The notes beneath the pieces are model-generated. The model was given only the letters and a program-made list of their open reading frames with translations, ran no database searches and was not told the DNA's origin. Made by a program: the position numbers and the translations under genes. Shown here piece by piece: positions 5,312 to 45,979 of a DNA stretch of 64,000 nt; the stretch's first letter is position 1, and every line of letters starts with the position of its first letter. Origin of the DNA: Candidatus Absconditabacteria bacterium (GTDB taxonomy: Bacteria > Patescibacteriota > Gracilibacteria > Absconditabacterales > Absconditicoccaceae); NCBI GenBank assembly GCA_028693445.1, contig JAQUVI010000002.1, positions 6,971 to 70,970 of the forward strand, given 5' to 3'.

Positions 5312-6784
5312 TTACACAATATAGCTAATTTTATCTCAAATTTCCAGCTCAATTTTGTTGTTTTCTACTCAGGTGATTTGATCAAGGGTAATTTTGTCGT
5401 AAGGGTCGATTTCTGGTCAATGGAGGAGTGGGCGGATTTCTAGGATTGTTTTTTCTTCGTTTGGATTCACGCCGCAATGACTGAGTGTTGATCAATCTGG
5501 ATTGCTTCATTTTCATTCGCAATGACTGTTTACTTTTTTCTGTTTAATTTCCATAATATATCCTGTTTCTTCGATTCCTTTTCTTTGTTTTTCTTTTTTT
5601 GTGAGTAATTTATCTACGATATCATCTGCTTGTATAAATCTTTGTTTGAGTGTATTGTCGTCGATTTTGTCGCGTAATTTGCTTGATGCAGCTAGTGGTT
5701 CGTCGTGATATTCAAACAATGCGATGTTGTCGAAATAATCCTTTTGTAAAAAATCTAAAAGTTGTTGATGATCAGAATTTGTTTCTCATGGAAATCATAT
5801 AATAATATTGGTCCTGACAAATCTTGTAGGAAATTCTTCTTTGATAAAATCTAGAAATTTATAGATAGCTTCTTCATTGTAAAATCTTCCCATTTTTTTG
5901 AGCAGAGGAGCACTAATATGTTGTAGGGGAATGTCGAAATATGGTATAAACTTTTTGAGTTTTGTGAGTTTTTTGAGGTGATCTAAGGTGAGAATATCTG
6001 GATATAAATATAATAATCTGAATTTAAAATTTCCTTTGAGTTTGTCTATTTCTTGTAATAGTTTAAAGAGCATTGATTTTTTATAAAGATCGGTTCCATA
6101 TCTTGTGGTATCTTGCGCGATGAGAATAATTTCTTCGATTCCATTTTTTATCATATTTTTTGCTTCTTCTATAATAGTTTCGATAGGGAGAGATTTTTGC
6201 TTTCCTCTGATTTTTGGAATAATACAAAAACTACAGTTATTGTCACATCATTCTGCTATTTTGAGATATTCGAATTTATGATCTATATTTGTGTAAACTC
6301 TTGGATTATTTGTAAATTCAAAATCCTTGTAATCTGTGCTGTTGTATCATTCGAGTAGTTTTTTGAGTGTTAGGGTATTGAAGTCGTTTCGTGAGAGTGT
6401 GAAAATGTTTTGGGTATTTGGATTAGATTCCGACTCCAAGTTCTTTAGGTCGGAATGACATTCTTTATTCTTAATAAATTGAAAATGGTTGTTAGAATTT
6501 AAATTTTTATAATATTGGACAGCACAGCCCAGAAGATATACTTTTTTGCCTTTTTGGAGAAGCTTTTTTAGAGTATGGGCTGCTTCATCTCTAGCAGAAG
6601 AAATAAATCCACAGGTATTGAGAAAAACAAAATCCACTTCTTTGGCGTAGGGATCTATATGATATTGTGGTAATATATGTGGTTCCTTTTCTGCCAATGT
6701 AAAAACTTTACCAAGAAGATGCTGAGTATCTACTAGATTTTTGGTACATCAAAGATTTATAGAAGAAAAATTGAATACTTTCAT
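5312..6784 (-). CDS. rimO: Ribosomal protein S12 methylthiotransferase RimO
   Basis: This 490-aa radical-SAM enzyme adds a methylthio group to an aspartate of ribosomal protein S12. The N-terminal MTTase domain has INLGCTKNLVDT (Cys13), a second Cys in FLNTCGF and a third in LLGCAVQ, ligating one Fe-S cluster. The radical-SAM triad is EGCDNNCSFC, and GFPGETNSDHQ and a C-terminal TRAM-like domain follow. It is longer than usual (about 430-450 aa) because repeat-derived peptides are inserted in frame. One lies after the LLGCAVQ segment (encoded by 6426-6459) and one before the TRAM end (encoded by 5463-5526). The ATG at 6784 gives the expected N-terminus. Confidence 0.92.
5463..5526. repeat. 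Two palindrome-type repeat fragments inside rimO
   Basis: GGATTCACGCCGCAATGAC (5463-5481) and GGATTGCTTC...CGCAATGAC (5499-5526) are two adjacent elements ending in the same CGCAATGAC tail, a sequence style known for interspersed repeats. Both are read in frame within rimO, contributing peptide around SHCEGKGSNPDG and SHCGVNPNEE close to the C-terminal TRAM region. Confidence 0.7.
6426..6459. repeat. Palindromic element inside rimO
   Basis: This 34-nt copy of the GATTCCGAC family is fully inside the rimO reading frame and encodes, on the minus strand, roughly CHSDLKNLESES. The element has no stop in this frame, so rimO remains open. The same element at 21639-21672 is intergenic and differs at about one position. 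Confidence 0.88.
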
Positions 6785-14984: not shown

Positions 14985-16127
14985 TTATTTTTGGATAAAA
15001 GTTTTTCTTGCATTGTTTGCTATTTCTTTTCTATTTCGATTTGTTTTTATAAATTTGGAGAATCCGTCTATGATATCTTTTTCTGTTTTATTTGCAATAA
15101 GTACTCCAGAATCTTTGTTTACTAATTCTGTTGTTGCTCATTGGTTATATCACAATACTGGTATTCATAAACATAGGGATTCAGCTGTAGAAAGACCAAA
15201 ACTTTCTTTTGTTAAATTTATTGTTCATCTCGCATTTTTTATTATTTCTATCATATTTGGTGGATTTCGTCATGTGAAAGATATGTTTTTCTTGGCCAAT
15301 TTTTTGAGTTCTTCTTCATCAGGTCCACTTCCTATGATAATTAATGGATAATTGATTTTGTTGAAAGTTTTTATGATAAGATCAATTTCTCTTACAAATT
15401 TTACAATTCTTCAAGTGCAAACTATATATTCTTTTGGTATTTCTATAATTTTTTCATTAAAATAAATCTGATTTAATTTGGGATATTTTACATTGCTTTC
15501 TATATTGTATATTTCTTTTGCTAATTTTTGTGTGTATTTACTATTTGTATATATTTTATTGTATTTTGTATATTTTAGGTCTCGTCTTTGTAATTTAGGT
15601 GTTATTTTTTTAAAAATTCGTCATTTTCGTCATTTTAGTTTTTGTTTATATTCTTTTGCATGACTTCGAATATATTGCATAGGAGAGTGAAGGTATAGAG
15701 TAATTTTTGGAGAGACGCGATTAATCGCGTCTGTACATGTGCAATATTTTGATTGTTCGATATTTTTTGCTATTGCAAATGAAGAAATCAAAATATGGTT
15801 TGGATTGTATTTTTTTATTTTCCAAGAGAGTGTTTTCATGATTGTTGGATAAAAAAATATCAAATTGCGATAATCAAAGATTTGTTTCAATATTGGTAAA
15901 TTTCTGTGTGAATTTCGTTGGAAAAATGTGTTTAATCGTTTTGGTAGAGCAGTAATAATCTTGATTTTTTTGTTATTTATAGAAAATGATTTTACTTCAC
16001 TATAACTTGTAAATATTTTTATATCATCAAAATCTGAAGATATTATTTCTTCTTTGATAAGGTCTTTAAATACTTCCAATGCTCATCCTGGAGCGATTCG
16101 ACAATGAACTCCTGCTAGTTTTTTCAT
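14985..16127 (-). CDS. Family 4 glycosyltransferase
   Basis: This 380-aa GT-B glycosyltransferase starts VHCRIAPGGALEVFKDL. It carries the C-terminal nucleotide-sugar site ESFGLSTAESLCLGIPVLGYNQGATTELV, with the EX7E-type pattern of GT4. IVCTGRIVKF and LIIIGSGPDEEELKKLAK mark the second Rossmann domain. Near residue 135 the peptide TDAINRVSPK is encoded by a perfect 20-nt palindrome that also occurs in the U32 gene at 25880. The protein stays in frame, so it is an insertion tolerated in a loop between the two lobes or in the first lobe. The role is probably surface glycan assembly. Confidence 0.9.
15713..15732. repeat. Perfect 20-nt palindrome inside the GT4 gene
   Basis: AGACGCGATTAATCGCGTCT is its own reverse complement. 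The identical 20-mer is at 25880-25899 inside the U32 gene. In both it is read in the same frame on the minus strand and gives DAINRVS. Confidence 0.93.
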
Positions 16128-16197
16128 GATTTTTAATTAGTTGTAATTAATAGTAATTAGTAGTAATTAGTTTCTAATTATCAACGCTAAATTAGTA

Positions 16198-16225
16198 TTG
16201 AAATAAGATAGGGAAAATTTATAAG
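16198..16225 (+). promoter_or_regulatory. Putative promoter of the 136-aa membrane protein
   Basis: TTGAAA (16198-16203) and TATAAG (16220-16225) are spaced by 16 nt, 38 nt before the ATG at 16264. The sequence just upstream (16140-16190) is a run of TAGTAATTAG-like repeats. Confidence 0.45.
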
Positions 16226-16263
16226 ATCAGTAGTATTAGAATTTTATTATCTGATTTTTTGTT

Positions 16264-16674
16264 ATGGATAAAGAAATGAAACAGATTTTTAAAAATAATG
16301 TTATTAAATTTATTATATGAATTATATTGTTGTTTTTCTGTTTTTTATATACTCAAAAATATCCTGCAGAAAAAATAGCAATATTTTCAGGTTTTGAAGT
16401 AATGGTTCAAAGAGTTGAAATTATATTCAACAAATTTATGAATGATAATTCAGATTCTTTAAAAAATAAATTTGATTATGAAAAAGCATATGAAGAATTA
16501 ATTAGAATTGCAGAAGCAAATAGTTGTGAGGATCCACAACTTATACAGGAATTAAAAGATACTCTTACTTCGTTGCAAAATGAACCAATCAAAACAATTC
16601 AAGATGTAATGCCTTGATATATCCGCAAAGCAAATGAGCTTAAAAATAGAGTTTCTAAAGAGTGTAAAAATTAA
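16264..16674 (+). CDS. Hypothetical membrane-anchored protein
   Basis: This 136-aa protein is not recognised. A short cytoplasmic start (MDKEMKQIFKNN) is followed by one hydrophobic segment (about residues 13-32), in which a TGA glycine lies. The acidic, helical remainder contains an isolated Cys-Glu-Asp and ends in Cys-Lys-Asn. It could be an exported protein with an uncleaved signal anchor. It is the only plus-strand gene in this stretch and has its own promoter-like sequence. Its stop lies 12 nt from that of the convergent methyltransferase. Confidence 0.72.
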
Positions 16675-16685
16675 AAAACATTAAA

Positions 16686-17306
16686 TTATTTTCTTAAAGA
16701 AATTATATATCATATTGTTGTGTTTTTTTCTGTTATAGGAAAACTATCTACTATGAAATTATTGTTTTTTGCTATTTTTTCTATATCTTGAAGTCTGTGA
16801 TTATAGAGTCTTATTTTAAATATTTCTTTGTCTTTTTTTCGTAAAAATTCGCGTCTTTGTAAGAAGTGTCATATAATTCGTTGTCATCATGATTTCAATA
16901 TTTTATAAACCTCTTGAAACAATAATTCTAAGTTTTCTACATGTTCCAAAACAAAAAAACTTAACACTACGTCATAAATTTCTTTTTCAAAAGGAAGTTT
17001 CTTTTCTAAATCACAAATGACTTTTTCGACTTTATTTGTTCATGGATGTCTTTTTAATAGTTTTTCTGAAATATCACAAGCTGTGTATTTTTTAATAGGT
17101 TTATCTTTGAAAAATTTCCAGATTCTTCAATCTCATGCTCATAAATCTATAATATTTATGTTATCCAAATTTCTAGGTAAAAATCTAAGAAAAAATCATC
17201 TATCAAATGAATCAAGATGATTGTGATGTTTTCCATATTCATCGGCTATAAAATTATAACCTTCTTTTGGAGTTTTTATTTCTACATGTTTACTATCGTA
17301 TCACAT
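16686..17306 (-). CDS. Class I SAM-dependent methyltransferase
   Basis: This 206-aa protein has motif I NIIDLGAGDGRIW and an acidic residue after the second strand (KYTACDIS). YDVVLSFFVLEHVENLE is the motif IV region, and LKSGGQRIIGHF motif VI-like. This is the Methyltransf_11/25 type, with unknown small-molecule, lipid or protein substrate. Glycines in motif I are partly TGA. The start chosen is ATG 17306 (MGYDSKHVE), the first ATG in frame close to the upstream gene stop at 17320. Confidence 0.85.
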
Positions 17307-17319
17307 CTTTTTTATGTTT

Positions 17320-17715
17320 TTAAAAGAATTTTTTTTCTTCATATTCATTATCTTTTGTTTTGTTTAATTTATCTATTTTTTCTAACATTTCTTTGTCAGG
17401 TTCTTGTAAGAATTTATTTAATTCTGTTGTTTTTTCTGCGGCTTTTTTGATATGTACATAATATTTACTTAATTCTGTTACAACGTCAGTTAGATCATCA
17501 TTTTTTTCCAATAATTTAGTTATTTCTTCTCTTAATATTGTGTTCTGCTCCGTAAATTCATCTAATTCAGATTGTACAAATTGTAATTCTTTATTTGCTT
17601 CTTTTAAACTACTTCTAAGATGATTTACAGTATCTTTGTGTTGATATCTAAAATAAAAAATAGCATATCATATTGCTCATCAAAGGATTAATGCTAGAAA
17701 TGTGTATCAGTTCAT
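17320..17715 (-). CDS. Membrane-anchored coiled-coil protein
   Basis: This 131-aa protein has one N-terminal membrane segment (about residues 3-22, with the small-residue motif GGAIGYAIF). A long charged helix then runs from about residue 27 to 120 with heptad-like Leu/Ile spacing (KELQFVQSELDEFTEQN, EITKLLEKNDDL), predicted coiled coil. No catalytic motif is seen. It lies 14 nt upstream of the methyltransferase on the same strand. It may be a small scaffold or division-type accessory protein, but that is speculation. Confidence 0.72.
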
Positions 17716-17811
17716 TTAATTTGGTTTTAAATGTTAAATGTTTAATTTTAAATATATCGTTATATGTAACTTTTTTCTTGTTGTATGCAAATAAAAATAA
17801 TTAAACAAAAA

Positions 17812-17833
17812 AACTTTCCCCTGAGAGAAAGTT
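17812..17833 (-). terminator. Rho-independent terminator of the HU gene
   Basis: Stem AACTTTC / GAAAGTT with a short loop. On the minus strand it is followed by a T run, 26 nt after the HU stop. Confidence 0.8.
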
Positions 17834-17858
17834 CTTTTGAAGTGTGTGAAGAAAGAAA

Positions 17859-18134
17859 TTATTTCACAGCAGCTTTGAAATCAGCACCAGCTTTGAAAGT
17901 AACAACTTTCATTGCAGGAATTTTGATTTTTTGAGAAGGATTTTGTGGATTAACACCTTCTCTAGCTTTTCTTTTAGAAGCTTTAAAAGTTCCGAAACCT
18001 TGAATTCTAACTTCTCCTGTTTTTTTAACACCAGCAATAACTGTGTCGATGAAAGCATTAACCAATTCAGCAGAAAGTTTCTTAGAAACTCCAAGTTCTT
18101 CAGCTAAGCTAGCAATAAGAGCTGTTTTTGTCAT
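17859..18134 (-). CDS. hup: DNA-binding protein HU
   Basis: This 91-aa protein of the HU/IHF family has the N-terminal helices TKTALIASLAEELGVSK. The beta-arm region VRIQGFGTFKASKRKAREGVNPQ is followed by the conserved NPSQKIKIPAMKVVTFKAG with the intercalating Pro. Length is standard. I chose ATG at 18134 (MTKTALI) rather than the earlier TTG at 18143. The protein wraps and bends DNA in the nucleoid. A 206-nt upstream gap (18135-18340) may hold its promoter, and a strong terminator follows. Confidence 0.95.
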   Translation of the reverse strand: MTKTALIASLAEELGVSKKLSAELVNAFIDTVIAGVKKTGEVRIQGFGTFKASKRKAREGVNPQNPSQKIKIPAMKVVTFKAGADFKAAVK

Positions 18135-18340
18135 TGTGTACAATTGTTATAAAATAAAATTGTTTTGTACCCCTAGATATTAGTATACGCGACAGTTATT
18201 TCAAGAGATTTTTTATATAAAGATGAAAATGGGCTCTGTTTGTTAAAATTTGCTTCTTAACTGGTTTTTTTAATTTTTTTTGTCACACACCTTAATTAAC
18301 ATCTGTTGACTTTTTGTAATATGATTTTATAGATAGTGTT

Positions 18341-18904
18341 TTATAAGGGGTTTTCTAGGCGAGACTTAAGTTGTTTTATTGCTCTAGATAATCTTTGTCT
18401 TACATTATCATTTGATATTCATAATAGAATTTCAATTTCTTCATTTGATTTTTCTTCTATAAATTTCCAATAAATAATATCTTTGCTTCAATCATCTATT
18501 TCTTTCATTGCTTTTTGTATTTTTGAAAATTCGAAGTCTCTTTGTAAAATATCTCAAATATCTTCTTCTTCAATTAGAGTTTCTTCAAATTTTGTGTCTT
18601 GTTCTTCTGTTCCTATATTAGTAAATGGAATATCTTGATTTTTTTTGAAATAATCCTTGAGTAAATTTTTGAAAATTGTCCAAAAATAACCGGAAAATGA
18701 TTGCTTTTCGTCGTATTTTTTCGCTCATTCTCGGAATTTTACATAAAAATCTGATATTATATCTTGGGCATCTTGATGTGTTATAAAATAATTTGCTTCT
18801 ATGTAACGAGAAAACATATCAACAGTTTTTAAATAAAACGTGTTGAATGCAGAGTGGTCTTGTTGTTTGAGCTTTCTAATTAATTCTTGATCGAATTGAA
18901 ACAT
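18341..18904 (-). CDS. ECF-like RNA polymerase sigma factor
   Basis: This 187-aa protein has a sigma region 2 (AFNTFYLKTVDMFSRYI, HQDAQDIISDFYVKF, SGYFWTIFKNLLKDYF) and region 4. The latter has the helix-turn-helix KSNEEIEILLGISNDNVRQRLSRAIKQLK. That is the normal ECF layout without regions 1 and 3. No anti-sigma gene is next to it. The start chosen is ATG 18904 (MFQFDQE); an in-frame TTG lies 21 nt further up. The ferredoxin gene stop is 25 nt upstream. It would direct RNA polymerase to a small regulon, which cannot be named. Confidence 0.85.
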
Positions 18905-18928
18905 ATTTTGGTTATAAATAGTCAAATA

Positions 18929-19258
18929 TTAGATATTTTTTTGTAGTATTACTTCAAAATTTTCGTTACTTTTTATTTTTTCTGTTTGTATGCCTCATAC
19001 ACAGGTAAATATTTCTTTAAAATTTTTATTTTCATCTTGGGCAGGGAGTATGGCAGGTGGCATCAGTTTATCTATCTGTACGTGTTCAGCCCCTTTTTTT
19101 ATTTGGCACGCGCAAACATAACAAGCTCCCATGCGACAAGAAATCGGTATATTAATATTGTGATCTTGCGCCATTTGACTCAGACTTTTGTTGTAATCAG
19201 CATTAAATGATCATATTGTTTCTCAATTTGTGTTTTGTATTGTTACAGTTACGGTCAT
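18929..19258 (-). CDS. [2Fe-2S] ferredoxin (plant/xylene-monooxygenase type)
   Basis: This 109-aa protein has a CRMGACYVC loop with Cys41, Cys46 and Cys49 and a fourth ligand in FTCVGG near residue 87, the C-x4-C-x2-C...C pattern of [2Fe-2S] ferredoxins. An extra Cys51 follows the third ligand. TGA glycines occur near the N-terminus and in CVGG. It is a soluble electron carrier; the partner cannot be seen, though the hydrogenase-like protein at 8608-9459 is another Fe-S protein in the window. It lies between the S41 protease and the sigma factor with short gaps. Confidence 0.87.
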
Positions 19259-19285
19259 GTATTATACGTTTTAAATAAATTTTTG

Positions 19286-20467
19286 TTACATCTTTAGTAC
19301 TATTTCTTTTGCTTTTTCTAGTTGATTGTCTATTTTTTGTTCTTTGTATTTGTCTAGATCAAATTCTATTAATATATCAGGCGTTATGCCAACTTCATCG
19401 ATGTTTTTGCCGCTAGGGCTATATCGTTTTCAAATTGTGTATTTTAGTGATGCTCAATCATCAAAATCTTCCATTGTTTGTATAGATCCCTTTCCAAAGC
19501 TTTGGGTTCATACTATTTTTGCATCTATTTGTTCTTGTAAAGCAAGTGCTATAATCTCTCAAGCTGACGCTGTATATCAATCAATTAATACAACAATCGG
19601 TTTTTGGAAAACATCATATCATCTAGAGTAATATTCTTCTTCTCATAATTGCTTATATTTTGATGAAACTATAAGCTTATTTATAGGTACGAAGTGTGAT
19701 GCTATTTCTACTGCAATTGGAAGAAGTCATCATCAGTTTCATCTAAGATCAATTATTATTGCTTCTATACTATTATTCTTGAACTTTAAAAGTTCTTTTT
19801 TGAGTAAATTTTCGGTTTCTGTTCATATGACTGATATTTCCAAGTATCATATGTTTTTTGTTCATGTTATTATTTCACTTGAAACTGATGGTACAGAAAT
19901 AGTATCTCTAATAACATTTTTTTCTAAAACTTCTTTGGTTTCATCTTTATTTATTCTTTCTATTCGCAAAGAAACTGTACTTCATTTTGGTCATCTTATT
20001 TGTTTTACAGCTTCGTTTATTGAGAGTTCTTTTGTTGGATTTTCGTTTATTATTACGATTCTATCCAATGGTAGTAATCATCATTTGAAAGCTGGAGAAT
20101 CTTTTATAACTTCCTCAATTAATACGTAATAATTTTTTTTGCTTATAACTGCTCAAATTCATTCAAAGTTTGCTTCTCACTTGAGATCTTCTTGAAAACC
20201 AGAGTTTGTTTCTGAATCCAAATATGATGTGTATGGGTCTTCCAATGCATCTACATAGGCTTTTAGAGCATTTTCTATCATTTTTCATGTATTTATTTTT
20301 TCTTGTTCGTAATATAATGTTTGAAGTGTATCCAAAACTTCTTCGAAGCGTTGATATGTTTGTGTTTGATATTGTTCTATATCTTGTTTTGGTCAGAATT
20401 CTTGATATCAAAAAAATCATATAAGAATTCCTATTGCCATAAGTATTAAAGCCAAATGTTTTTTCAT
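19286..20467 (-). CDS. S41 C-terminal processing peptidase
   Basis: This 393-aa protease has an N-terminal membrane anchor (LALILMAIGILIGFFG). A PDZ domain follows (FEGIGAVISKKN ... SPAFKGGLLPLDRIVIIN ... VKQIRGPKGSTVSL). The serine-lysine catalytic domain has LIDGYTASAGE (nucleophile Ser) and GTQSFGKGSIQ (catalytic Lys), in family order. It acts outside the cell membrane, trimming exported proteins at their C-termini. The ATG at 20467 lies 6 nt from the YraN gene stop. A second, divergent S41 protein is at 38395-39888. Confidence 0.93.
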
Positions 20468-20473
20468 AAATAG

Positions 20474-20812
20474 TTAGTTATTGCTAATATTTTCGTAGTG
20501 ATGAATTATAAGATTTTGTTTTACGAAAACAAGATCAATACGAAGTTGTTTGTTTGTTGGATATTCTTGATTGAAAAATTGTATTGTTTTATATATTGTT
20601 TGTAATTTTTTTGTGGAAATATAGTTGTGAAGGTCTTTTGTTTGCTCTACTTCTTTGACTTCTATAAATACACGATTATTATCTTTTTCTGAAATAATAT
20701 CTAATTCTCATCAACGAATAGTATAATTCTGATGTAATATTTTGTATCAATTGTCAATCAAGTATTGTTTTACTATATTTTCAGCTTGATATCAACGTTT
20801 TCTTTTATTCAT
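20474..20812 (-). CDS. YraN/UPF0102 endonuclease-like protein
   Basis: This 112-aa protein matches UPF0102. The N-terminal GYQAENIVKQYLIDNGYKILHQNYTI is followed by RGGELDIISEK and VFIEVKEVE, the ELD...EVK pattern of the restriction-endonuclease-like fold. The family is linked to DNA processing, but its substrate is not settled. It seems to be in an operon with the S41 protease downstream (6-nt gap). Confidence 0.87.
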
Positions 20813-20818
20813 ATTTTT

Positions 20819-20877
20819 TAGAACTTAGAATTTAGAACTTAGAATTTAGAACTTAGAGCTTAGAGCTTAGAACTTAG
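20819..20877. repeat. Heptamer array (RRCTTAG/AATTTAG)
   Basis: About eight copies of a 7-nt unit, AACTTAG with variants AATTTAG and AGCTTAG, lie upstream of yraN and next to the 99-nt element. It is the same family as 39889-40035, 43822-44024 and 45940-45979. Confidence 0.85.
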
Positions 20878-20976
20878 CTATTCTATTTGTCGATCTGAGT
20901 GAAACGAAGAGCATAATAGAAGATATGATTTAGCTATCCTCTTCGACAAGCTCAGAGGGACAAAGCTAAATTATAG
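20878..20976. repeat. 99-nt interspersed element, copy 1
   Basis: This copy matches 44025-44123 across all 99 nt with only a few substitutions. It includes inverted segments (TAGCTATCCTCTTCGAC and its partner). Its end supplies the TAA stop of the Sod gene. Both copies directly follow a heptamer array, so the two repeat types travel or persist together. Confidence 0.9.
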
Positions 20977-21585
20977 ATTAAAATTCTCTTCTGCGAAAGA
21001 TCGATTAATTAATGACCAAATGTTTGTAAGATATTCTGGTCTGCGATTTTGATAATCTAGGTAATATGCATGTTCTCGTACATCTATAGTAAATAGAGGA
21101 GTATAATTTATGTTTTCTTTGTTTCCGATAACTGTTTCTGGTCTCATTGGAGTTCCTGCATTTGACGTATTGATAATTTCTAATTCGTTGTTTGTAGTTT
21201 TTACAAGCCAAGTTCGTCCTGATCAGAAATTATTTGTTCATTTTGCGATAAATTCTTGTTTGAAATTATCAAAAGATCATCGTTTTTGCTCGATAGCTTG
21301 TGAAAGATTTGGATTAGGAAGATTATTATCTTGTATTGGGCGAAGAGAATTTCGATAAAAAGTGTGGTTTCGGATTTGGGCGGCATTGTTGAATATTGGT
21401 CCAGCTTCGGCTGTGCTGATTATTGTTTCCAAATCTGAGTTTTCAAAAGATGTCCCTGTGATAAGTTCGTTGAGTTTGTTAACGTATCATTGATGGTGTT
21501 TCCCATAATGAAGATCTATTGTTTTTTCGTCTATTACAGGCATTAATCCTGTTTTATCGAAAGGAAGTTGTGGAAGTATTATCAT
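20971..21585 (-). CDS. sodB: Fe/Mn superoxide dismutase
   Basis: This 204-aa protein has the metal ligands in family order. His is in [13 protein letters not shown] (first ligand near residue 26), then NHTFY (second), and the Asp and His are in [13 protein letters not shown]. The usual Trp in DVWEHAYY is Arg here, and FGSGRTWLV has Arg where many relatives have Trp. It would detoxify superoxide in the cytosol. Fe or Mn use is not decided by the sequence. The stop codon lies within the 99-nt repeat. Confidence 0.92.
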
Positions 21586-21638
21586 GATTATTTATTTAAG
21601 AATAAAATTTTATAAATTGACTAGCTAGATTTCCGTTA

Positions 21639-21672
21639 GATTCCGACTCCAAATTCTTTAGGTCGGAATGAC
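21639..21672. repeat. Interspersed palindromic element
   Basis: GATTCCGACTCC...GGTCGGAATGAC, 34 nt, intergenic between sod and the exported protein at 21855. It is almost identical to the copy inside rimO at 6426-6459. The rest of the 269-nt gap is AT-rich and holds the promoter of the next gene. Confidence 0.88.
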
Positions 21673-21793
21673 AGGCGAAAATAACAAATAAGTCTTTTCA
21701 TTGGAATTTTAGTATTTTGAAATTCAGATTCAATATTATTTTGTAATTTTATTTTGATTTGTCAATCCTAATGTATTAATAATGTCAGATTTT

Positions 21794-21822
21794 TTTTGAT
21801 TTTTTGCTGTTGTAACTATAAT
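21794..21822 (+). promoter_or_regulatory. Putative promoter of the exported protein
   Basis: The -10 sequence is a perfect TATAAT (21817-21822). At 17-nt spacing the -35 is a weak TTTTGA. It lies 33 nt before the ATG at 21855. Confidence 0.5.
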
Positions 21823-21854
21823 TAATTTAGAGTTTTATTTGTTATATATTTACC

Positions 21855-22340
21855 ATGTTTGTTCGTAAAAATTTAATTCAACAATCAGATATGCTTAGAA
21901 GAAATAGCGTTTTAAAAGCCTTGGCTTTGTTTCTTTTGTGAGCTTCAGCTGTACTTTTGTTTTCATCAGCAGATTTGGTTTTAACTCCAAATGTTTCAAA
22001 TTCTTTTGTATATTTACAAAAAATGTTTTTGTCTCCAAGTGGAACATTAAGTACACAGGCAACGATATCTTTTGATTGAGCTTCTGGAAGTGTAGTAGCT
22101 ACTTCACTTTCTTGAACCAATATATCAGCAATTAATATGAATACCGCAGTTTTTACCGCTGCTGTAGCTTCAATATCTAATGGAGTGAATACATCTCAAA
22201 TATGTTCTTCTACCTGAGCAAATTGTTTCAATTCAGCTTTGGTTAATAACTTATCGGGTGATGTAATATCACTAAACCAACGTTTAACAAATCTTGAAGC
22301 GTTGGTAGAACAACTTTCATGAGTTGTAAATGCTCAATAA
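21855..22340 (+). CDS. Exported pilin-like or secreted hypothetical protein
   Basis: This 161-aa protein has a charged N-terminus (FVRKNLIQQSDMLRRNS). A 20-residue hydrophobic stretch follows (LKALALFLLGASAVLLF), which may be a cleaved signal or a pilin-like helix. The mature part is Ser/Thr/Asn/Ala-rich (SVVATSLSGTNISAINMNT, NNLSGDVISLNQR). It has Cys in ICSSTGANC, possibly a disulfide. TGA encodes most of its glycines. It has a promoter and a strong terminator of its own and probably is highly expressed. The function is unknown. Confidence 0.75.
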
Positions 22341-22391
22341 TTATTCATTAAAAAAATGAGGAGTATAAAAACTCTTTATTGTACAAAAAGT

Positions 22392-22411
22392 CCTCTGAGA
22401 TTTCTCAGAGG
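22392..22411 (+). terminator. Strong Rho-independent terminator
   Basis: Stem CCTCTGAGA/TCTCAGAGG followed by TTTTTTT, 52 nt after the 21855-22340 gene. Confidence 0.9.
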
Positions 22412-22433
22412 TTTTTTTATTTTTAAATATAAA

Positions 22434-22453
22434 CCCCGCATTTATTTGCGGGG
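22434..22453 (+). terminator. Second hairpin, possible terminator
   Basis: Stem CCCCGCA/TGCGGGG, followed by AAAGTTTTTTG. It lies just beyond the first terminator and near the convergent DUF1846 stop, so it may stop transcription from either side. Confidence 0.6.
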
Positions 22454-22470
22454 AAAGTTTTTTGTTTAAT

Positions 22471-23445
22471 TTAATCTATTTTTTGTTCTAAGTCATATCA
22501 CTTTTTTTGTACGTATTCTTGAAATATATTTATATATTTATCATAATTTTCTAAATCTGGATTTCGATCTTTTCTTCTTTGAATTTCTTGATAAGATGCG
22601 ATAGATATAATTTCATCGTTTGTTATACAAGAATATGTTTCATTTATTTCATTGGCTTTTGATCCTCATAATTTTTCTAATAAATTTTCTGTGTTTTTTG
22701 TATTTTCATTGTTGTTTTCCAAGATATTTTGATCACCAATAGCTATTTGATAAGCTAAATTTATTGGATGACTATCTTCTAATTTTGTTATTGGAAATGT
22801 AGAAAGTTTAGCATATCAAGATTCTAATCAGATTTGTTTGTCGTTGTAAATTTGTGCCAAACATGTTGATGTTTTGTTTTTGTTTTCCTTGTCTTGACCT
22901 ATTACCAATATAAGATTATTGCTTAAAGGAATATGGTCGTCTCATCAAAATCAATTATCACTTAATATGTTTTTTGTATTGTGAGGGTATCATATGATTT
23001 TGTATTTTTCTCGTACTTTATAATTCCTACGTTGAAATTCTTGTTCAAATTCCAAAACTTTATCAAAATCTTGCTGTATATCTATATTATTTATTACTAT
23101 TTGTGGTTTGATTCAAAGTTCTATTTCTACTCTTTTTATAATACTGTTTGTAGAATTTATACTATGTTCTTTCTCTGTTAATATATCATTTGCATCTAAA
23201 CAAAAAAGAATTTCTATTTGTTCTTTGAGTGGAGCAAAAATATGTTTTTGACTATCGATTATATATCATGGTAATGTTCTAGCCGCATGAGGATCTTGTA
23301 AAAATTTTCCATCAATTTCTAGATATAGTTTTCAATTTTTGAAAATAGAGAGCTTATTTATAATAGCTTCTCTTTGTCTTTTGATATATTCTTGTCAATC
23401 AAATCATTTTTTTTTGTATAAAATTACATCTGAAGGAGTAATCAT
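22471..23445 (-). CDS. DUF1846 family protein, short form
   Basis: This 324-aa protein matches the DUF1846 core. It starts KKKWFDGQEYIKRQ. FKNGKLYLEIDGKFLQDPHAARTLPGYI, KEQIEILFCLDAND and IIGYPHNTKNILSDNGFGGDDHIPL follow. LESGYAKLSTFPITKLEDSHPINLAYQ and CITNDEIISI complete the match. Known members are about 500 aa and cytosolic; this one stops after the central domain and lacks the C-terminal third. The enzymatic role of the family is not established. Glycines are largely TGA. Confidence 0.8.
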
Positions 23446-23518
23446 TTTTTGTTTTTGTATAATAAAGGCATTTGCTTTACCTTTAAATTATATTTAAAAA
23501 AGTACTTTTTGTCAAATT

Positions 23519-24733
23519 TTATAGTACTTTTAATTCTTGGAGAATGGTTTCGTATTCTCAGTATTCTCATTGATATTTTTGTAAAATATAATCTTTGAGT
23601 AGTTGTTTTCGATCTGCAAAACTTTGATTATCTTGAGAAGAAAGTTGTAATTTTTCTAATAATTCATTGGTATTTATTGATTGTTTTTTGAGTTTTATTT
23701 GTCCTATTTGATTTAGTAATGTTTCATTTACGTGTTCTTGTATATGGTCATAGTCCAAACTATCTCAAACTATAGTGATGTTTATATATTGTAAAGGAAT
23801 AGAATCAGAATTATTTATTTCTATTTTTTGTGTTCAAAGAAAATAATTTTTGCTATTTGTGATTTGTCATTGAATAGCTTCCTTTATGATTTCTTCAGTG
23901 ATTTTTGTTCCTTGTTGAAATTCTAGGTAAGGATTTATACGAATTGGTTTGGTTTTATATGTATTATTGTTTGTATCGTATTGAAAAAGAAATTTTTCTT
24001 GGTTGATTTCCAAAGGACTTGTAGACCGGATACTTCATGTACAAAGATAATTTTTGTAAGAACATGCTTGATGAAGATGGCCTGATATAAATTGAGTATT
24101 TGTAAAATCAAGTAATTCTTGGCTAAGTGCAATATCTTTGTAAGAAAATTGAGATTTTTGTCCTGGAAGTTTTGTTTTGTTGAAATAATAATGATGAATA
24201 ACTAAAGATTCTGGATATTTTTCGAGGAGGGTTGCTAAACAATTGTTTATTTTCCATGATATTTGTTCGTTTTTGTTGGATGATGTTTCTAAATATTGTA
24301 CGTTTTTTAACCAATCTGGTTGTTGTGTTGGTTGATTTTCTGGTATTTGTAGCATAAATGGAAAAAGAATTATGCTTTGATTTTCTATAGTTATTTGTGT
24401 TGGTTGTGTAATAAAATGGAGATTTCATTTGTGTTTGGTATCGTATTTTTGAATAATCTGAAATGCTTTTTGTGCTTCTTCAAAGACAAAAGAGTTTCCA
24501 AGTCGATCGTGATTTCAAGCAAGAATATAAACGTTTTTGCCTTGTTCGAAAAGTTCTACAAAAAAATGATATAATGATAATAAAGCAGTTCTATCATATG
24601 AAAAATGGTATACATAATCGCCAAGAAAAATAATATTTTGTTCATCAGAATTTGATTCTATATATTTTTTAAGTTCTTGGATGATTCTGTCTTTATGTTT
24701 GGAGGTGATATGAATATCTCAGATGAGTAGCAT
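23519..24733 (-). CDS. Calcineurin-like metallophosphoesterase
   Basis: This 404-aa protein has the five metallophosphoesterase motifs in order: GDIHI at the N-terminus, LGDYVYH, AGNHDRLGN, HHYYFNK, and SGHLHQACS. The layout is SbcD/Mre11-like, with an N-terminal catalytic domain and a C-terminal extension of about 170 residues, but no SbcC-type partner is next to it. The extension contains a helical LKKQSINTNELLEKLQLSS segment. It may be a DNA-end nuclease or another phosphoesterase; the context does not decide. Confidence 0.88.
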
Positions 24734-24834
24734 TGTTGATTTCTGAATGTTAAATGTATTTGTATGGTAGTGAAATGATTGGTGCTTTGCAAGGATAAGT
24801 GAATAGCATAAGATTTATCTAAACGCTCCGCTTG

Positions 24835-24867
24835 GGTTACTTTTTACCATTGCCGCAAAAAGTAACC
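24835..24867. repeat. Imperfect inverted repeat GGTTACTTTTT...AAAAAGTAACC
   Basis: A hairpin of the same kind as 11898-11928. It lies immediately upstream of the second 78-nt element copy. Confidence 0.75.
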
Positions 24868-24875
24868 AAAAAGGT

Positions 24876-24954
24876 CTAGGCCAAACAAGTCCGCCATGTT
24901 TGTTTGGCCATAACTTGCTTAGTCAACGTATTGCTTTCCAGCTATATCAATACG
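24876..24954. repeat. 78-nt interspersed element, copy 2
   Basis: This copy matches 5192-5269 with a few changes and contains the same GGCCAAACA/TGTTTGGCC palindrome core. The 363-nt gap 24734-25096 otherwise holds only this, the inverted repeat and the terminator below. Confidence 0.85.
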
Positions 24955-25053
24955 AAAGAATTGTTTATTTTTATTAGATGTTGGAATACTTCGATATTCT
25001 ATCAAGTTTGAATATTTACTTATTTAATAATAATTTATTTTTATTTATAAAAA

Positions 25054-25071
25054 AGACGCTTTAGTGCGTCT
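25054..25071 (-). terminator. Rho-independent terminator of the 133-aa gene
   Basis: Stem AGACGC/GCGTCT followed by a T run on the minus strand, 26 nt after the stop at 25097. Confidence 0.75.
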
Positions 25072-25096
25072 CTTTATTTATTTTGAAAATTGAATA

Positions 25097-25498
25097 TTAT
25101 GCGTGATTTTCTTTTCTAAATTTTGGGTAATGAGTAAAGAAAAGTATCATAAATAAGATTGCTCGAATTCATCAACCAAGGATTGATTCTTTTGTGTGAA
25201 TATTTCTTCACAATAAAATTTGTTCTTCTCTTTCAATTTCACATTCTTTTATTTGTTCTTCTGAAGGCCTTCGATTTTCATCTTTTGGCGCTGTTTTTCC
25301 ATAATAATGAGCTTCTTTACATTGTTGCATTTCATAATATCTTTGTCAATTTACATATTCGTTGTTTGTTATAACTAATCTTTGTCAAAGAGCTGTTAGA
25401 GCAATTCATAAAGATATCAAACTTCAAATAAGCCCTACTAGACTTGCAATAAGAAGATAAACTTTGTAGATGCTCCATGTTTTTTTTGTGTCTTCCAT
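25097..25498 (-). CDS. Hypothetical two-helix membrane protein
   Basis: This 133-aa protein is not recognised. A first membrane segment lies at about residues 11-32 (VYLLIASLVGLIGSLISLG). A soluble charged loop with two Cys (MQQCKEAHYYG, IKECEIEREEQ) follows. A second segment lies near the end (GGGIRAILFMILFFTHYPKF). The loop Cys pair could form a disulfide if it is outside. Comparable small DUF5671-like proteins are known, but I do not assign a family. Confidence 0.7.
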
Positions 25499-25565
25499 TT
25501 TTAAAATTAATAATTAAAAATTAATGATTAAAAATTAGTGATTTCTGTTTTATATACAATAGATT

Positions 25566-26870
25566 TTATTCGTACAATAATTCTCGTCCTTGTAAATCTT
25601 TATCAGTTAAAATATAAATATCAAGCTTGTTGCAATCTCATTTTTCTATATTTTTTCCTTTGTTATCTAAAATATCCAAAATTTCTAAAGTTCCAATTTC
25701 GTTTTTTGAAATATATTTGATTTTCATACCTCTGGTAATAACCTCTTTAGGGTCAATCTGAAAATATTTTTTACTGTTGTGTTCTATATATTTATCGGTG
25801 AAAACTCCGAAGTTGTTGCGATTGAAAAGTGGACCTCAAGTGGTGAGGGTGGTCGAGGTTTCGGTGGTTTCATTCGCAGAGACGCGATTAATCGCGTCTT
25901 TATCAATATTATCACCACCCTCATTTTTTACTTCTCATTCTGGGTAATCAGCGAGTTTGTTGAATACAAAACCTGATCGGTATTGTCTATGAGGTACTAC
26001 GTTTACTAAATTTTTGATATTTTCATCAATTGGTGTGTTAGCAATGATAGCATCACGGACGTGTTTGTATGCTTTTACAATACTACCAACATATAATTCT
26101 GATTTAGATCTTCATTCTATTTTTATTGCATCTACGTGAGGCATCAGTTCAGCGAGTCTGTCGATTACACAGAGATCTTTGGATGATAAAATATGAACGC
26201 CATTTTCATCGTTTTCTAGTTGGAATAGCTTTCCTGGTCTGCGTTCTTCTTCTAACCAGACTTTGTATTTAAATCTACAATTATGTGAACATTCTCATTT
26301 ATTAGCTTGTCTTCAATTCATATAATCACCGAGTAAACATCTTCATGAATAACTCATACACATTGCTCAGTGTGCGAAAATTTCGAGCTCCATATCTGGT
26401 ACATCTTTTTTGATTTGAGAGATTTCATCGATATGCAATTCTCTTGCAAGTACAACTCTTTTTACTCCTAAATCTCTTCGAAAAGCTACTGATGCTGAGT
26501 TAAGAGTACTTGTTTGTGTACTTAGGTGAAGTGGCATATTTGGAACATATTTTCTAATAGTTTTAAATGTTCATGGATCAGAAAAAATAATGGCATCGGC
26601 TCCAACATCTGATATACGTTCAACTGTTTGTTCAAAAATAGAAATATCTGTATTTCTAGGAAAAATATTCATAGTTAAAAGAGCTTTAGTACCGCGTGAG
26701 TGTAAAGCATCTACAGTTCTTTTGAGTTCATCAAATCCAGTAATTTTGTTTTGTCTCATTCTTAGTGAAGTGAATGGTACTCATACATAAACTTCATCAG
26801 CTCAATAAGTACTAGCTACGATAGCTTTTTGGTAGGATCCTCCTGGGGCAACTATACTAGGTTTGTTCAT
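25566..26870 (-). CDS. U32 family peptidase / tRNA-rRNA hydroxylation protein
   Basis: This 434-aa protein has the U32 core. IVAPGGSYQKAIVASTYGADEVYVGV at the N-terminus is followed by MELEIFAHGAMCMSYSGRCLLGDYMNGRQANKGECSHNCRFKY, the Cys-rich signature. VDAIKIEGRSKSELYVG follows. Related proteins (TrhP, RlhA, UbiU/V) carry an Fe-S cluster on these Cys residues and hydroxylate RNA bases or ubiquinone precursors; which of these applies is open. Near residue 325 a 20-nt palindrome (25880-25899) is inserted in frame, encoding DAINRVS. Many glycines are TGA. Confidence 0.9.
25880..25899. repeat. Perfect 20-nt palindrome inside the U32 gene
   Basis: Identical to 15713-15732 in the GT4 gene, and in the same reading frame. 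Confidence 0.93.
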
Positions 26871-26899: not shown

Positions 26900-26981
26900 G
26901 TCATTTCCGCTTTGTCAGTTGCAGCGGAAATCTAGATTGTTTAATTAGATTACCGCCCCAAATTCTTTAAGCGGGAATGAC
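26900..26981. repeat. Two adjacent palindromic elements
   Basis: The first (26900-26933) has arms TTTCCGC/GCGGAAA. The second (26948-26981) is a GATTACCGCCCC...GCGGGAATGAC copy, a variant of the 34-nt family. They are in opposite orientations. The 26871-27055 gap holds these and the terminator below. Confidence 0.8.
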
Positions 26982-27036
26982 TGAAAAATATGTGTTTGAG
27001 TATGTTATGGTTTTGAGTTGAAAATACAATAAAAAA

Positions 27037-38394: not shown

Positions 38395-39888
38395 ATGAGA
38401 AAAATCTGATTGTTATTATTGATAATTCTAAGTATTATAAGTCCAGTTTTTGCCGAATATTGATTGACTTTGGAACAATTTTTGAATACTTATGTTAATG
38501 TTGTTGTGCAAGATCAAATAATTCCTGATACTTATCGTTATATAGAACTTAAATATCCAAATATTTCACCATCAACAAAATTATATGAAACTTTACAAAA
38601 AGCTGTATATTTGGATTTGTTTCCAAACGCAGATATAGAACTACCGCTGGATAAACAAATTACTCAAGAACAAGTTATGAAAATAGTTTCTTCATCGTTT
38701 GAAATTGATGTTTTTGTAAATAAAAAATCATTGGTAACTGTTGATTGGTTAAAAGATGTTTTATTGGAAATTCAATATATAAAATCAAATAATTTGTCTG
38801 TTGATAATCTTCCTTTTAATCAAAAAAATGAGATTATTGATAATCCTTTGTTTTTGGATATATATAAAAAACTTCAAGATAATTATATATCAGATAGTTG
38901 ACTTGATCAAAAATCTTTGTTGTATTGAGCAATTAAATGATTTGTAGAATGATTAAACGATCCTTATACTTCATTTTTTCCACCTACAGAAACTAATCTT
39001 GTTTTGGATGAGTTACGTGGTGAATATTATGGTATTGGTGCTTATGTGGAAATGAATAAACCATGAGAGCTTATTGTTGTTTCTCCTATAAAAGGTTCTC
39101 CAGCAGAAAAAATTTGACTTCTTGGATGAGATAGAATTGTTCAGATAAATGACAAATTTGTTGATAAAGATATGTCTTTGACTTTGGCAACTTCGATAAT
39201 TAAATGACCAAAATGAACTTCTGTTAAATTAAAAGTTTTAAGAGATGGTAAATTATTGGATTTTGATGTAATAAGAGATAAAATTGTTATTAATAATGTT
39301 GAATCCAAAATTTATACTGAAAATAATTTAAATACATGTTTGGTTGCTATTTCTATGTTTGATTTTGGTGTAGCTAGGGATTTTCAAAAAATTATGACAG
39401 ATTTGTCTGATAAAAAATGTGTAAAATATATATTTGATGTCAGAAATAATCCAGGTTGATGATTGGATGAAGTTGTTCGTATGCTCAATTATTTTGTGCC
39501 AAATTGAGAGACTTCTGTGATTATTAAATCTAGATTTATTACAGAAGAAATAATTGCTTGGGATGTGCCTTCTGTAAAGATTCAAAATATTCCTGTGCGT
39601 GTGTTAATTAATCAATGATCAGCTTCAGCTTCAGAAATTTTTGCATGAGTTATCAGAGATTATGTACCAGGTGTTTTACTCGTTTGAGAAAAAACTTTTG
39701 GTAAATGATCAGTGCAAGAACTTTTTAATTATGAAGATGGAAGTATGTTGAAATATACAATTGCAAAACGATATATGGGTAAATCTCAAATAAATATTGA
39801 TAAAATATGAATTTCTCCGGATAAAATTCTTGTTAATAAAAAAGATACTCCAGAGGATGAAGTATTGGAATGGGCTATTCTTAATTAG
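38395..39888 (+). CDS. S41 PDZ-containing peptidase with S-layer-like N-terminal part
   Basis: This 497-aa exported protease has a signal peptide (KIGLLLLIILSIISPVFAEYG). An N-terminal helical part with repeats like an S-layer or peptidoglycan-binding domain follows. YGIGAYVEMNKPGE and SPAEKIGLLGGDRIVQIN form a PDZ domain. The catalytic Ser is in VLINQGSASASEIFAG and the Lys in GEKTFGKGSVQ. It acts outside the membrane. Most glycines, for example in GGGLDE (NNPGGGLDE) and GGDR, are TGA. The TAG stop is immediately followed by 21 heptamers. Confidence 0.9.
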
Positions 39889-40035
39889 AACTTAGAGCTT
39901 AGAACTTAGAACTTAGAGCTTAGAACTTAGAACTTAGAGCTTAGAACTTAGAGCTTAGAACTTAGAGCTTAGAGCTTAGAACTTAGAGCTTAGAACTTAG
40001 AGCTTAGAACTTAGAGTTTAGAAATTAGAACTTAG
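39889..40035. repeat. Heptamer array, 21 units
   Basis: These are exactly 21 consecutive 7-nt units (147 nt), mostly AACTTAG and AGCTTAG. The last copies degrade to AGTTTAG and AAATTAG. It starts one base after the stop codon of the S41 protease, and the nrdR gene lies beyond. Confidence 0.95.
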
Positions 40036-40058
40036 TTTTTTGATTAGAGTGAATTTTC

Positions 40059-40493
40059 CTAATCTATAAATTTTTTGAAATCTTCGAGGTTGTTGAATGA
40101 TCTATATACAGAAGCAAATCTTACGTAAGCTACGGCATCTATATTTTTTAAAGCTTTAACTACATCGTCTCAAATTTGAGTTGAACTTACTTCGTTTCCT
40201 TCGCTAGATCGTTGAGTTTCTAAACTATTTAACAATCATTCTAATTCTTCTTGATTAATATCTCTTTTTGCGAAAGAAAGAAGTAATGCTTTTTTGAGTT
40301 TTTGTCTATCATACATTTCTTTTGTTCAATCTTTTTTGATAACAATTAATTCTGTTGTTCATTTTCTTTCGAAAGTTGTAAATCTATTGTTGCAAAATTC
40401 ACACTCTCTTCTACGTTTGATAGTTTGTCAGCCTTCTATACTTCTCGAATCTATAACTTTTGTATCCATATTATTGCATTTTGGGCACTTCAT
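40059..40493 (-). CDS. nrdR: Transcriptional repressor NrdR
   Basis: This 144-aa protein has the zinc ribbon CPKCNN (with CEFCNNRF as the second pair) and an ATP cone beginning ELIVIKKDGTKEMYDRQKL with ALLLSFAKRDIN. It follows the standard NrdR layout and length. It senses ATP/dATP and represses ribonucleotide reductase genes; none is in the window. It sits 5 nt downstream of the 725-aa gene, so it is likely the last gene of that operon. Confidence 0.93.
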
Positions 40494-43697: not shown

Positions 43698-43821
43698 ATT
43701 TTAGAATGTTAGAATTTGGATATTAGAACGTTAGTTTGATCTAAATACTAAAGTAAAGTATTGTTAATATACATAGAATTCGATTGAAAAAGCAAGAGAT
43801 TTAGTTAGTTTATAATTATAG

Positions 43822-44024
43822 AACTTAGAACTTAGAACTTAGAACTTAGAGCTTAGTGATTAGAACTTAGAATTTAGAATTTAGAACTTAGAGCTTAGTG
43901 ATTAGAACTTAGAATTTAGAATTTAGAACTTAGAGCTTAGTGATTAGAACTTAGAATTTAGAATTTAGAACTTAGAGCTTAGTGATTAGAACTTAGAATT
44001 TAGAACTTAGATCTTAGAACTTAT
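43822..44024. repeat. Heptamer array with 42-nt higher-order period
   Basis: Twenty-nine heptamers (203 nt). Within it, TGATTAG at 43857, 43899, 43941 and 43983 marks four turns of a 42-nt unit: AACTTAG, AATTTAG, AATTTAG, AACTTAG, AGCTTAG, TGATTAG. Such structure arises by repeated slippage or unequal exchange. The array runs straight into the second 99-nt element. The 470-nt gap 43698-44167 holds no gene. Confidence 0.93.
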
Positions 44025-44123
44025 CTATTCTATTTGTCGCTCTGAGTGAAACGAAGAGCATAATAGAAGATATAATTTAGCTATCCTCTTCGACAAGCTC
44101 AGAGGGACAAAGCTAAATTATAG
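44025..44123. repeat. 99-nt interspersed element, copy 2
   Basis: This copy matches 20878-20976 end to end, again directly after a heptamer array. A mutL promoter may lie within or after it (44124-44167). Confidence 0.9.
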
Positions 44124-44167: not shown

Positions 44168-45934
44168 ATGGCAATACATAAATTACCTGAATATATGATA
44201 AATAGATTGAAAGCAGGAGAAGTGGTTGAAAGACCTGCTTCTGTTATCAAAGAACTTGTAGAAAATAGTCTTGATGCTTGAGCAACTCATGTTAAAATCA
44301 CTGTTAATGATTGATGAAAATCTTTGATTAGTGTAGAAGATAATTGAACTTGAATAGAACTTTCTGATATGGATTTATTGTTGGAGAGATATGCAACCTC
44401 AAAAATTAATTGAGAGCAGGATTTATATAATTTACAGAGTTATTGATTTCGTGGTGAAGCTTTGGCAAGTATTGCGGAAGTTAGTAAAACAAGTATTATT
44501 TCAAAAACTGCTTATGCAGAAATAGCTACTAAATTAACCAAAATACAAGAAAGTTTGGTAATGAAACATGTCCCAGTTTGATTTAAACATTGAACTATAG
44601 TTTCTATTCAAGATTTATTTTATAATGTACCTGCTAGGTTAAAATTTCTCAAATCTACACAGACAGAATATTTTTATTGTTATAATTACTTTGTAGAAGT
44701 GGCTTTGTTCCATTATGAAAAACATTTTACGTTGTTGAAAAATGATAAAGTAGCCTTTGATCTTCCTCCTGTTGATTGATTGATGGAAAGGATTTTACAG
44801 ATATGGAGAAAGGATCGATCCAAATATCTAAACCCTTTGGAGGCTGAAAATGAAAATATTCGTATTCAATGAGTTATATCTGACGCTGGATTGACATTTG
44901 GATCTGCTGAAACTGTAAAAATTTATGTTAATGGAAGACCAGTTATTGACAAAATAATTAAAAAATCTCTTTTGGATGCGTATGTAAGACAAATTACACC
45001 CGGTGAATATCCGTTTGCTATTTTAATGTTGACTGTAAAACCTTCATTTGTAGATGTAAACGTACATCCAAAGAAATTAGAAGTGAAATTTTTGGATCCA
45101 AATCAGGTGTTTTCATTGGTAAACGAATCTGTTAAAAGAACGTTGTGAATTCATAAAATAGTTGAAGTAGAACATAAAATTTCACAACGTTGATTTGATA
45201 AAAGTGGTTTTGTTAATTGGAATGATAGAAACGAAGGGGGAGAGGCGAAGGCGGAATCTCTATTTTCTTCTGATTCTGTTCCCCCTTCTACCGGTCAATC
45301 TGGATTTTCCCATATACAATCGTCTACGATTGGATTTTCTGGACAAGACTTTCAAGAAGAATTTTTTCATGAACAGTTGTGAACATATCAAGTGGTTGGC
45401 CAGGTTTGGAATAGTTATATTGTGCTTTCTACTAATGAATCTTTGTTTTATGTTGATCAGCATGCATTAGCAGAGAGAATTGCTTTTGAAAAAATGAAAA
45501 AAGCTGTATGATATGCAAAATCAGAATTATTGTTGCAGCCTTTGACTGTAGATATTCCCAAAAGAGGAGATATAGAACAAAAAATAGATCAGATTAATAA
45601 ATTATGATTTGATTGTTCTCTATTGTCAGAAAATAAGATTATTGTTTATGCTGTCCCTCAAATTTTTAGTGTGTATAAAATTGATATAGACAATCTTTTT
45701 ACCTATATTTTAGCTTTGGAAAAAATAACATTTGATCATGTTTTGGATGCTATTTTTGCTACAAAAGCTTGTAAAACTTCTATAAAAGCTGGAGATACTT
45801 TGTCATACGAACAAATGACTCGTCTTTTAAAAGATGGATTTGAATATATTGAGTGAATGTTTGTTTGTCAGCATGGAAGACCATTTTTTGTCAAAATCGA
45901 GAAGAAAACTATAGATAAATTTTTTGATAGATAG
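44168..45934 (+). CDS. mutL: DNA mismatch repair protein MutL
   Basis: This 588-aa protein has the GHKL ATPase start [27 protein letters not shown], where the glycine after DA is TGA. The ATP lid GG and the VEDNGTGI motif glycines are also TGA. The C-terminal dimerisation domain retains the nicking-endonuclease signature [22 protein letters not shown] and CQHGRPFFV. This MutL should therefore nick DNA on its own, as in bacteria without MutH. The gene lies between heptamer arrays on both sides. No mutS is in the window. Confidence 0.95.
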
Positions 45935-45939
45935 GTTTT

Positions 45940-45979
45940 TAGAATTTAGATCTTAGAATTTAGAACTTAGTATTTAGTA
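45940..45979. repeat. Short heptamer array after mutL
   Basis: A handful of AATTTAG, ATCTTAG, AACTTAG and ATTTAG units just after the mutL stop, the third array near mutL. Confidence 0.75.

Follow-up and report, generated by a model that had tools for sequence, protein, structure and literature searches.

The DNA analysed here is a 64,000-nucleotide stretch (the window) of Candidatus Absconditabacteria bacterium, corresponding to positions 6971-70970 of contig 1 in a genome of 1,166,583 bases and 11 contigs (GenBank GCA_028693445.1; completeness 99.83, contamination 6.15). Two of its genes, for a GT4-type glycosyltransferase and for a U32-family protein, contain the same 20-nt palindrome, AGACGCGATTAATCGCGTCT, which in both is read as the peptide DAINRVS. 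Open reading frames (ORFs) were translated with table 25 (TGA=Gly), and the four bases on either side of the palindrome are referred to as its feet. The genes and copies are as follows.

14985-16127, minus strand: GT4-type glycosyltransferase ORF, 380 aa; DAINRVS is residues 133-139, in a variable loop.
15713-15732: 20-mer in the GT4 gene; with its feet 15709-15736, reading GTAC-AGACGCGATTAATCGCGTCT-CTCC on the gene strand.
25566-26870, minus strand: U32-family (TrhP-like) ORF, 434 aa; DAINRVS is residues 325-331.
25880-25899: 20-mer in the U32/TrhP-like gene; both feet degenerate, GCAG..TTAT on the plus strand.

The GT4 ORF matches Pfam Glycos_transf_1. In the U32 ORF, the peptide starts 20 residues beyond the Pfam Peptidase_U32 match (79-305), and the top NCBIfam match is TrhP (E 3.4e-89, below the curated cut-off).

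The observation, first made in the initial annotation, is real, and the element is very probably of a known kind, a GTAG double-foot repetitive extragenic palindromic sequence (REP). With up to 3 mismatches allowed, nothing else in the window matches, and the 20-mer was absent from all of 100 dinucleotide shuffles. The whole genome contains 8 exact copies (the reversed control, 0) and 11 at up to 3 mismatches, the three near copies being AGGCGC..GCGCCT (twice) and an imperfect form (once); the element is thus dispersed in multiple copies. On contig 11 (about 5.6-17.7 kb; L005, L006, L009, L010) two palindrome sites are doubled 6845 bp apart, and this doubling was counted once, which leaves 9 distinct sites, 7 of them exact. 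The repeat spaced by 6845 bp is either a tandem duplication or an assembly duplicate. Three distinct sites are intragenic, the third being an in-frame DAINRVS directly beyond the Pfam domain of an RsmB/F-type methyltransferase gene (contig 11, 28776), and six lie between ORFs; for exact sites the figures are 3 and 4. ORFs cover a 0.907 share of the window by simple ORF calling, so that 3/9 is far lower than expected (binomial P 4e-5), as is 3/7 for the exact sites (P 0.002). The plain reading of this deficit is selection against insertions in genes. The element does lie in frame in genes, as had been proposed, at its three intragenic sites, but most sites are intergenic although about 91% of the window is ORF.

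All three intragenic sites are read as DAINRVS. Read on either strand, the palindrome is the same. Of its three frames DAINRV and TRLIAS are open; the third is closed by TAA, and by TAG as well if GTAG is the left foot. Two open insertions will therefore agree in frame in one case out of two, and the common frame of the GT4 and U32 copies says little. Recoding, which the initial annotation mentions, plays no part, because neither open frame contains TGA. We also pooled 152 distinct exact copies (those of this genome, the scan matches listed and, for each genome of the class search described below, a single locus); 45 of them lie within open frames of at least 130 aa that extend 15 aa or more beyond the element in both directions, and the longest frame is DAINRV in 29 and TRLIAS in 16. 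This preference was dropped as proof, linked copies and chance ORFs having been counted.

The element is not confined to this lineage. A scan of contigs from other genomes yielded at least 114 stretches with it, at least 83 from Cyanobacteriota, at least 19 from Bacteroidota, at least 3 from Pseudomonadota and at least 2 from Moraniibacteriota, the remainder being at least four phyla with one each and at least 3 unplaced; one copy (L045) is from a Torokbacteria record, and its flanks and contig position are also those of the element in G020, a genome of the window's phylum. Within the phylum it was found in 2 of 286 genomes drawn, and within the class in 15 of 353, the window's genome included in both counts; two of the class carriers (G290 and G299) belong to the same family as the window. 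Both same-genus genomes examined lack the exact 20-mer (exact match only). The in-frame palindromic family that had been proposed for this recoded lineage is indeed dispersed and in frame in genes, but it is not lineage-specific.

In copies from other genomes, the aligned flanks end sharply at the feet, conservation falling beyond them. Among the 131 outside copies listed, mostly from Cyanobacteriota and Bacteroidota, the commonest 28-mer is GTAG-AGACGCGATTAATCGCGTCT-CTAC (38/131), which folds into a 12-bp hairpin (z -7.0); a further 24 have GTAC..CTCC or its reverse complement GGAG..GTAC, and GTAC..CTCC is exactly the form of the GT4 copy. Both strict feet (5′ GT[AG]G and 3′ C[TC]AC) are present in 40 of the 131 and one in another 40. 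In the window's genome the copies have little in common beyond the hairpin, and feet and flanks differ between them. The host genes are diverse: Pfam was run on 40 of the 51 listed open frames with the element and a family was obtained in 31 (E 0.001), examples being RecG, CysS, MutL, DnaG-type primase, nonribosomal peptide synthetase (NRPS), tRNA_Me_trans (MnmA-type), penicillin-binding protein, P-type ATPase and CobN/Mg-chelatase. At locus L106, a gene with a match to DUF3656 (Pfam description: Collagenase) contains four tandem units in which CTDAINRVS is read in frame.

GTAG double-foot REPs are thought to be non-autonomous and to be moved as single-stranded hairpins by REP-associated tyrosine transposases (RAYTs, or TnpA_REP), which are HUH transposases; the relevant ones here would be those of subclass 2.4. 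The available text of Corneloup et al. (2018; PMC6006769) gives for this subclass the feet 5′ GT[AG]G and C[TC]AC 3′, and describes REPs in frame within tnpA_REP itself, between HuH and Y. The present element lies in frame inside RAYT-like genes at L061 (TRLIAS frame), L091, L127, L141 and L142, inside a decayed RAYT-like gene at L143, and just upstream of a RAYT-like gene at L042 and L056; L141 is from G299, one of the carriers in the window's family. The intragenic position is the loop preceding GG[IF]xxxxNPM. Four element-bearing RAYT-like proteins match NF047646 with E 3.5e-12 to 1.2e-16, and L127, whose RAYT-like nature is judged on other grounds, belongs to the nine frames without a Pfam family. 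NF047646 matches occur in 34 of the 39 genomes searched, 18 of them above the cut-off; the window's genome, G329, G330, G620 and G627 gave no match. The assignment to subclass 2.4 is a putative one, judged from motif and position.

Homologues of the three host proteins were then compared, 30 loci being fetched for each from searches that matched more genomes. For the U32 protein, the GT4 protein and the methyltransferase alike, neither DAINRV nor TRLIAS is present in any of the 29 homologues fetched. The initial annotation had anticipated that such an alignment would reveal a clean gap; the peptide is indeed absent, but no clean gap was seen in relatives at 69-88% identity, the loops being too variable in length and sequence, including those of G329 (88, 69 and 75% identical). 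The same loops in relatives carry different inserts. In G323 (U32 and GT4; 120 kb sampled) and in G312 (U32; 28 kb), segments of the inserts are repeated at other places, and they are not recurrent in the samples of G329, G332, G292 and G327; lone short matches of 14-17 bases also arise for loop inserts, controls included. A hairpin scan of the relatives' loops, whose anchors dropped 15/21 U32, 1/30 GT4 and 4/18 methyltransferase rows, found few strong hairpins besides those of the window's genome and decides nothing. The U32 loop of L169 (G331) and L170 (G311) contains an in-frame domain of GxxExxY / PDDEXK_3-like type, the family being assigned on the L169 domain only.

Seeking an empty site, we used one carrier gene, Mg-chelatase H of L086 (Pfam CobN-Mg_chel), as a query in Nostocaceae. 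The search matched 144 of 145 genomes; 142 loci were fetched (L274-L415), of which 128 were readable by anchors and 126 were included in a tree. One loop of this protein contains GTAG-type REPs, other repeat-like peptides, or is short, at about 12 residues. The REP peptides include RDAINRVST, RDVACNVST, RDVVYNVST, RDAPWRVST, DAIYRVST, RDVTCNVST and others. Under a strict label, 23 of the 126 orthologues have an in-frame REP, in the DAINRVS-type frame in 21 and in the other in 2 (L325 and L376). These 23 REPs have 14 core labels, some differing by one base, and the many palindrome cores of the loop lie between near-identical feet.

On the tree, presence of the REP changes at least 14 times, 10 of the changes being forced by well-supported branches; shuffled labels gave 21.5 changes, and 0 of 500 shuffles were as low as observed. 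Core changes among the 23 bearers number 16. The tree is a quick one (500 columns; support is poor for 48 of its 123 inner branches), and the strict label misses decayed copies (for example L291), so that some presence changes are decay only. Other cores are scarce in the examined loci, which were chosen for one core, and each core is thus a candidate dispersed family. Repeated arrival or exchange at one Mg-chelatase loop is nevertheless hard to avoid. This result is new here and more surprising than the finding in the window. It is possible, if rather doubtful, that certain protein linkers act as reusable slots, in which REPs and other repeats enter, leave and replace each other in frame at one place; support is best for the Nostocaceae Mg-chelatase loop, and in the window's family the U32 and GT4 loops hint at the same. 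REP sequences might in that case be shaped for translatability in two frames and on both strands.

Some copies abut another palindrome. In 5 of 148 copies the flanks continue as a perfect inverted repeat of at least 8 bases directly from the foot (2000 shuffled flanks: mean 0.58, maximum 4); at 6 bases or more the count is 6 of 148 against 1.35 in shuffles, some of which reach 6. At L038, L069, L099, L113 and L142 the REP lies exactly at the dyad of another palindrome, with 8-16 bp of perfect flank complementarity. An enzyme that works on the tips of hairpins would be consistent with insertion at the dyad of a pre-existing palindrome, the numbers being small.

The intergenic copies of the window's genome are the following.

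Exact copy: 3′ of a 333-aa ORF.
Exact copy, contig 7: between convergent ORFs, as A-tract, hairpin and T-tract.
Exact copy, contig 11: beside CCGTAA tandem repeats.
Exact copy: in a divergent gap.
Near copies of the palindrome: two, the ORF downstream of one of them being presumably an acetate kinase.

Other repeats lie in the window as well.

25054-25071: AGACGCtttagtGCGTCT, flanked by A- and T-rich tracts as a terminator-like hairpin, with arm ends as in the REP palindrome, 0.8 kb from the U32 copy.
20811-20877, 39809-40115, 43763-44097 and 45925-45977: arrays in which a 14-bp unit, TTAGAACTTAGAGC or a variant of it, is repeated in tandem.
6416-6460, 21629-21673 and 26938-26982: a second dispersed palindromic repeat, ATTCCGAC..GTCGGAAT, its third copy diverged (71%).

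We consider it very likely that the element is a GTAG double-foot REP hairpin which would have entered this lineage horizontally and would have been spread by a RAYT, since lost or active only for a time, its intragenic copies surviving only where a tolerant linker and an open frame coincided. The published account permits loss of the RAYT gene. Several observations weigh against this explanation. No RAYT was detected in the window's genome (PF01797 and NF047646, E 1e-3), and mobility in this genome is inferred. NF047646 has no match in the carriers G620 and G627; the four RAYT-like proteins score 46-61 bits against it, the cut-off being 80, and the Pfam Y1_Tnp cut-off is reached in L141 and L142, missed in L091 and accompanied by no match at all in L127. 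As regards the feet, 51 of the 131 outside copies listed have neither strict foot, 4 of the 9 distinct sites of the window's genome have one complete foot and 0 of 9 both, and the U32 copy is without any. Finally, no empty site was found, so that the 28-nt form is a putative inserted unit.

It appears unlikely to us that the copies spread without a transposase, through palindromes that recombined or served for template switching, the loops having already held other repeats that were swapped. The lack of a detected RAYT, the Nostocaceae loop with many cores between near-identical feet and the five copies abutting the dyad of another palindrome would all suit this, but the copies in the window's genome differ in feet and flanks and share little beyond the hairpin, and in other carriers the element accompanies RAYT-like genes. 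It is more improbable still that selection favours the hairpin for a role in intrinsic termination or RNA regulation, the copies in genes being side effects: although the contig 7 copy has the appearance of a terminator, and intergenic REPs lie mostly near gene 3′ ends according to the available text of Di Nocera et al. (2013; PMC3733652), a third of the distinct sites are intragenic, others are in gaps without T-tracts, and an identical 28-mer bounded by feet across phyla would be left unexplained. That DAINRVS has a function of its own kept by selection is scarcely credible. The three DAINRVS insertions of this genome and the excess of DAINRV among the pooled open frames could be cited in its favour, but the host proteins are unrelated, TRLIAS is also found in real genes (DnaG-type primase, CysS, NRPS) and the peptide varies freely at the Mg-chelatase loop; the peptide is probably functionless.

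On the explanation by RAYT-driven REPs, the window extends REPs of this type to a small, recoded genome without a detected RAYT, where one could date when the element was gained and when its mobiliser was lost. The loop of the 126 orthologues suggests in turn that one linker was repeatedly hit in frame, and such repeated hits make testable the site choice of REPs, the survival of open frames and the share of repeats in loop length variation.

Literature searches gave no paper matching the 20-mer or DAINRVS, nor candidate phyla radiation together with REP (supplements aside), and none for RAYT and REP sequence within coding regions; among the papers listed for RAYT with Patescibacteria and for Gracilibacteria with palindromes, none is evidently about REPs. 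AGACGC does not occur in the text of PMC3733652, figures aside. The initial annotation had compared the element with the palindromes of Rickettsia, but its closest kin are GTAG-tagged double-foot REPs. Rickettsia palindromic elements (RPEs) likewise lie in genes and add an in-frame peptide, as the available text of PMC3733652 also has it; there RPE-4/6 are classed with CGTC-tagged repeats and RPE-1 is longer, whereas the present element has 28 nt and GTAG-type feet, an unpaired CGTC end tag not being found among its commonest ends. The GTAG-tagged REPs of the same text resemble it more closely: some lie within genes, in ORFs of unrelated proteins, and are tolerable in linkers or loops, although the hosts listed there (Proteobacteria, Cyanobacteria, Chloroflexi and the Planctomycetes-Verrucomicrobia-Chlamydiae group) do not include the present carrier. 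From the subclass 2.4 REPs, as far as the available text of PMC6006769 describes them, the present case differs in its host, a recoded (TGA=Gly) member of the Patescibacteria without a detected RAYT, in the partly decayed feet of its copies, and in its presence in three other genes. In its commonest form elsewhere it has, as they do, a perfect hairpin between GTAG and CTAC; Cyanobacteria and Bacteroidetes are prominent carriers of both, and both have copies in frame within RAYT or RAYT-like genes, after the HUH motif and before the Tyr motif.

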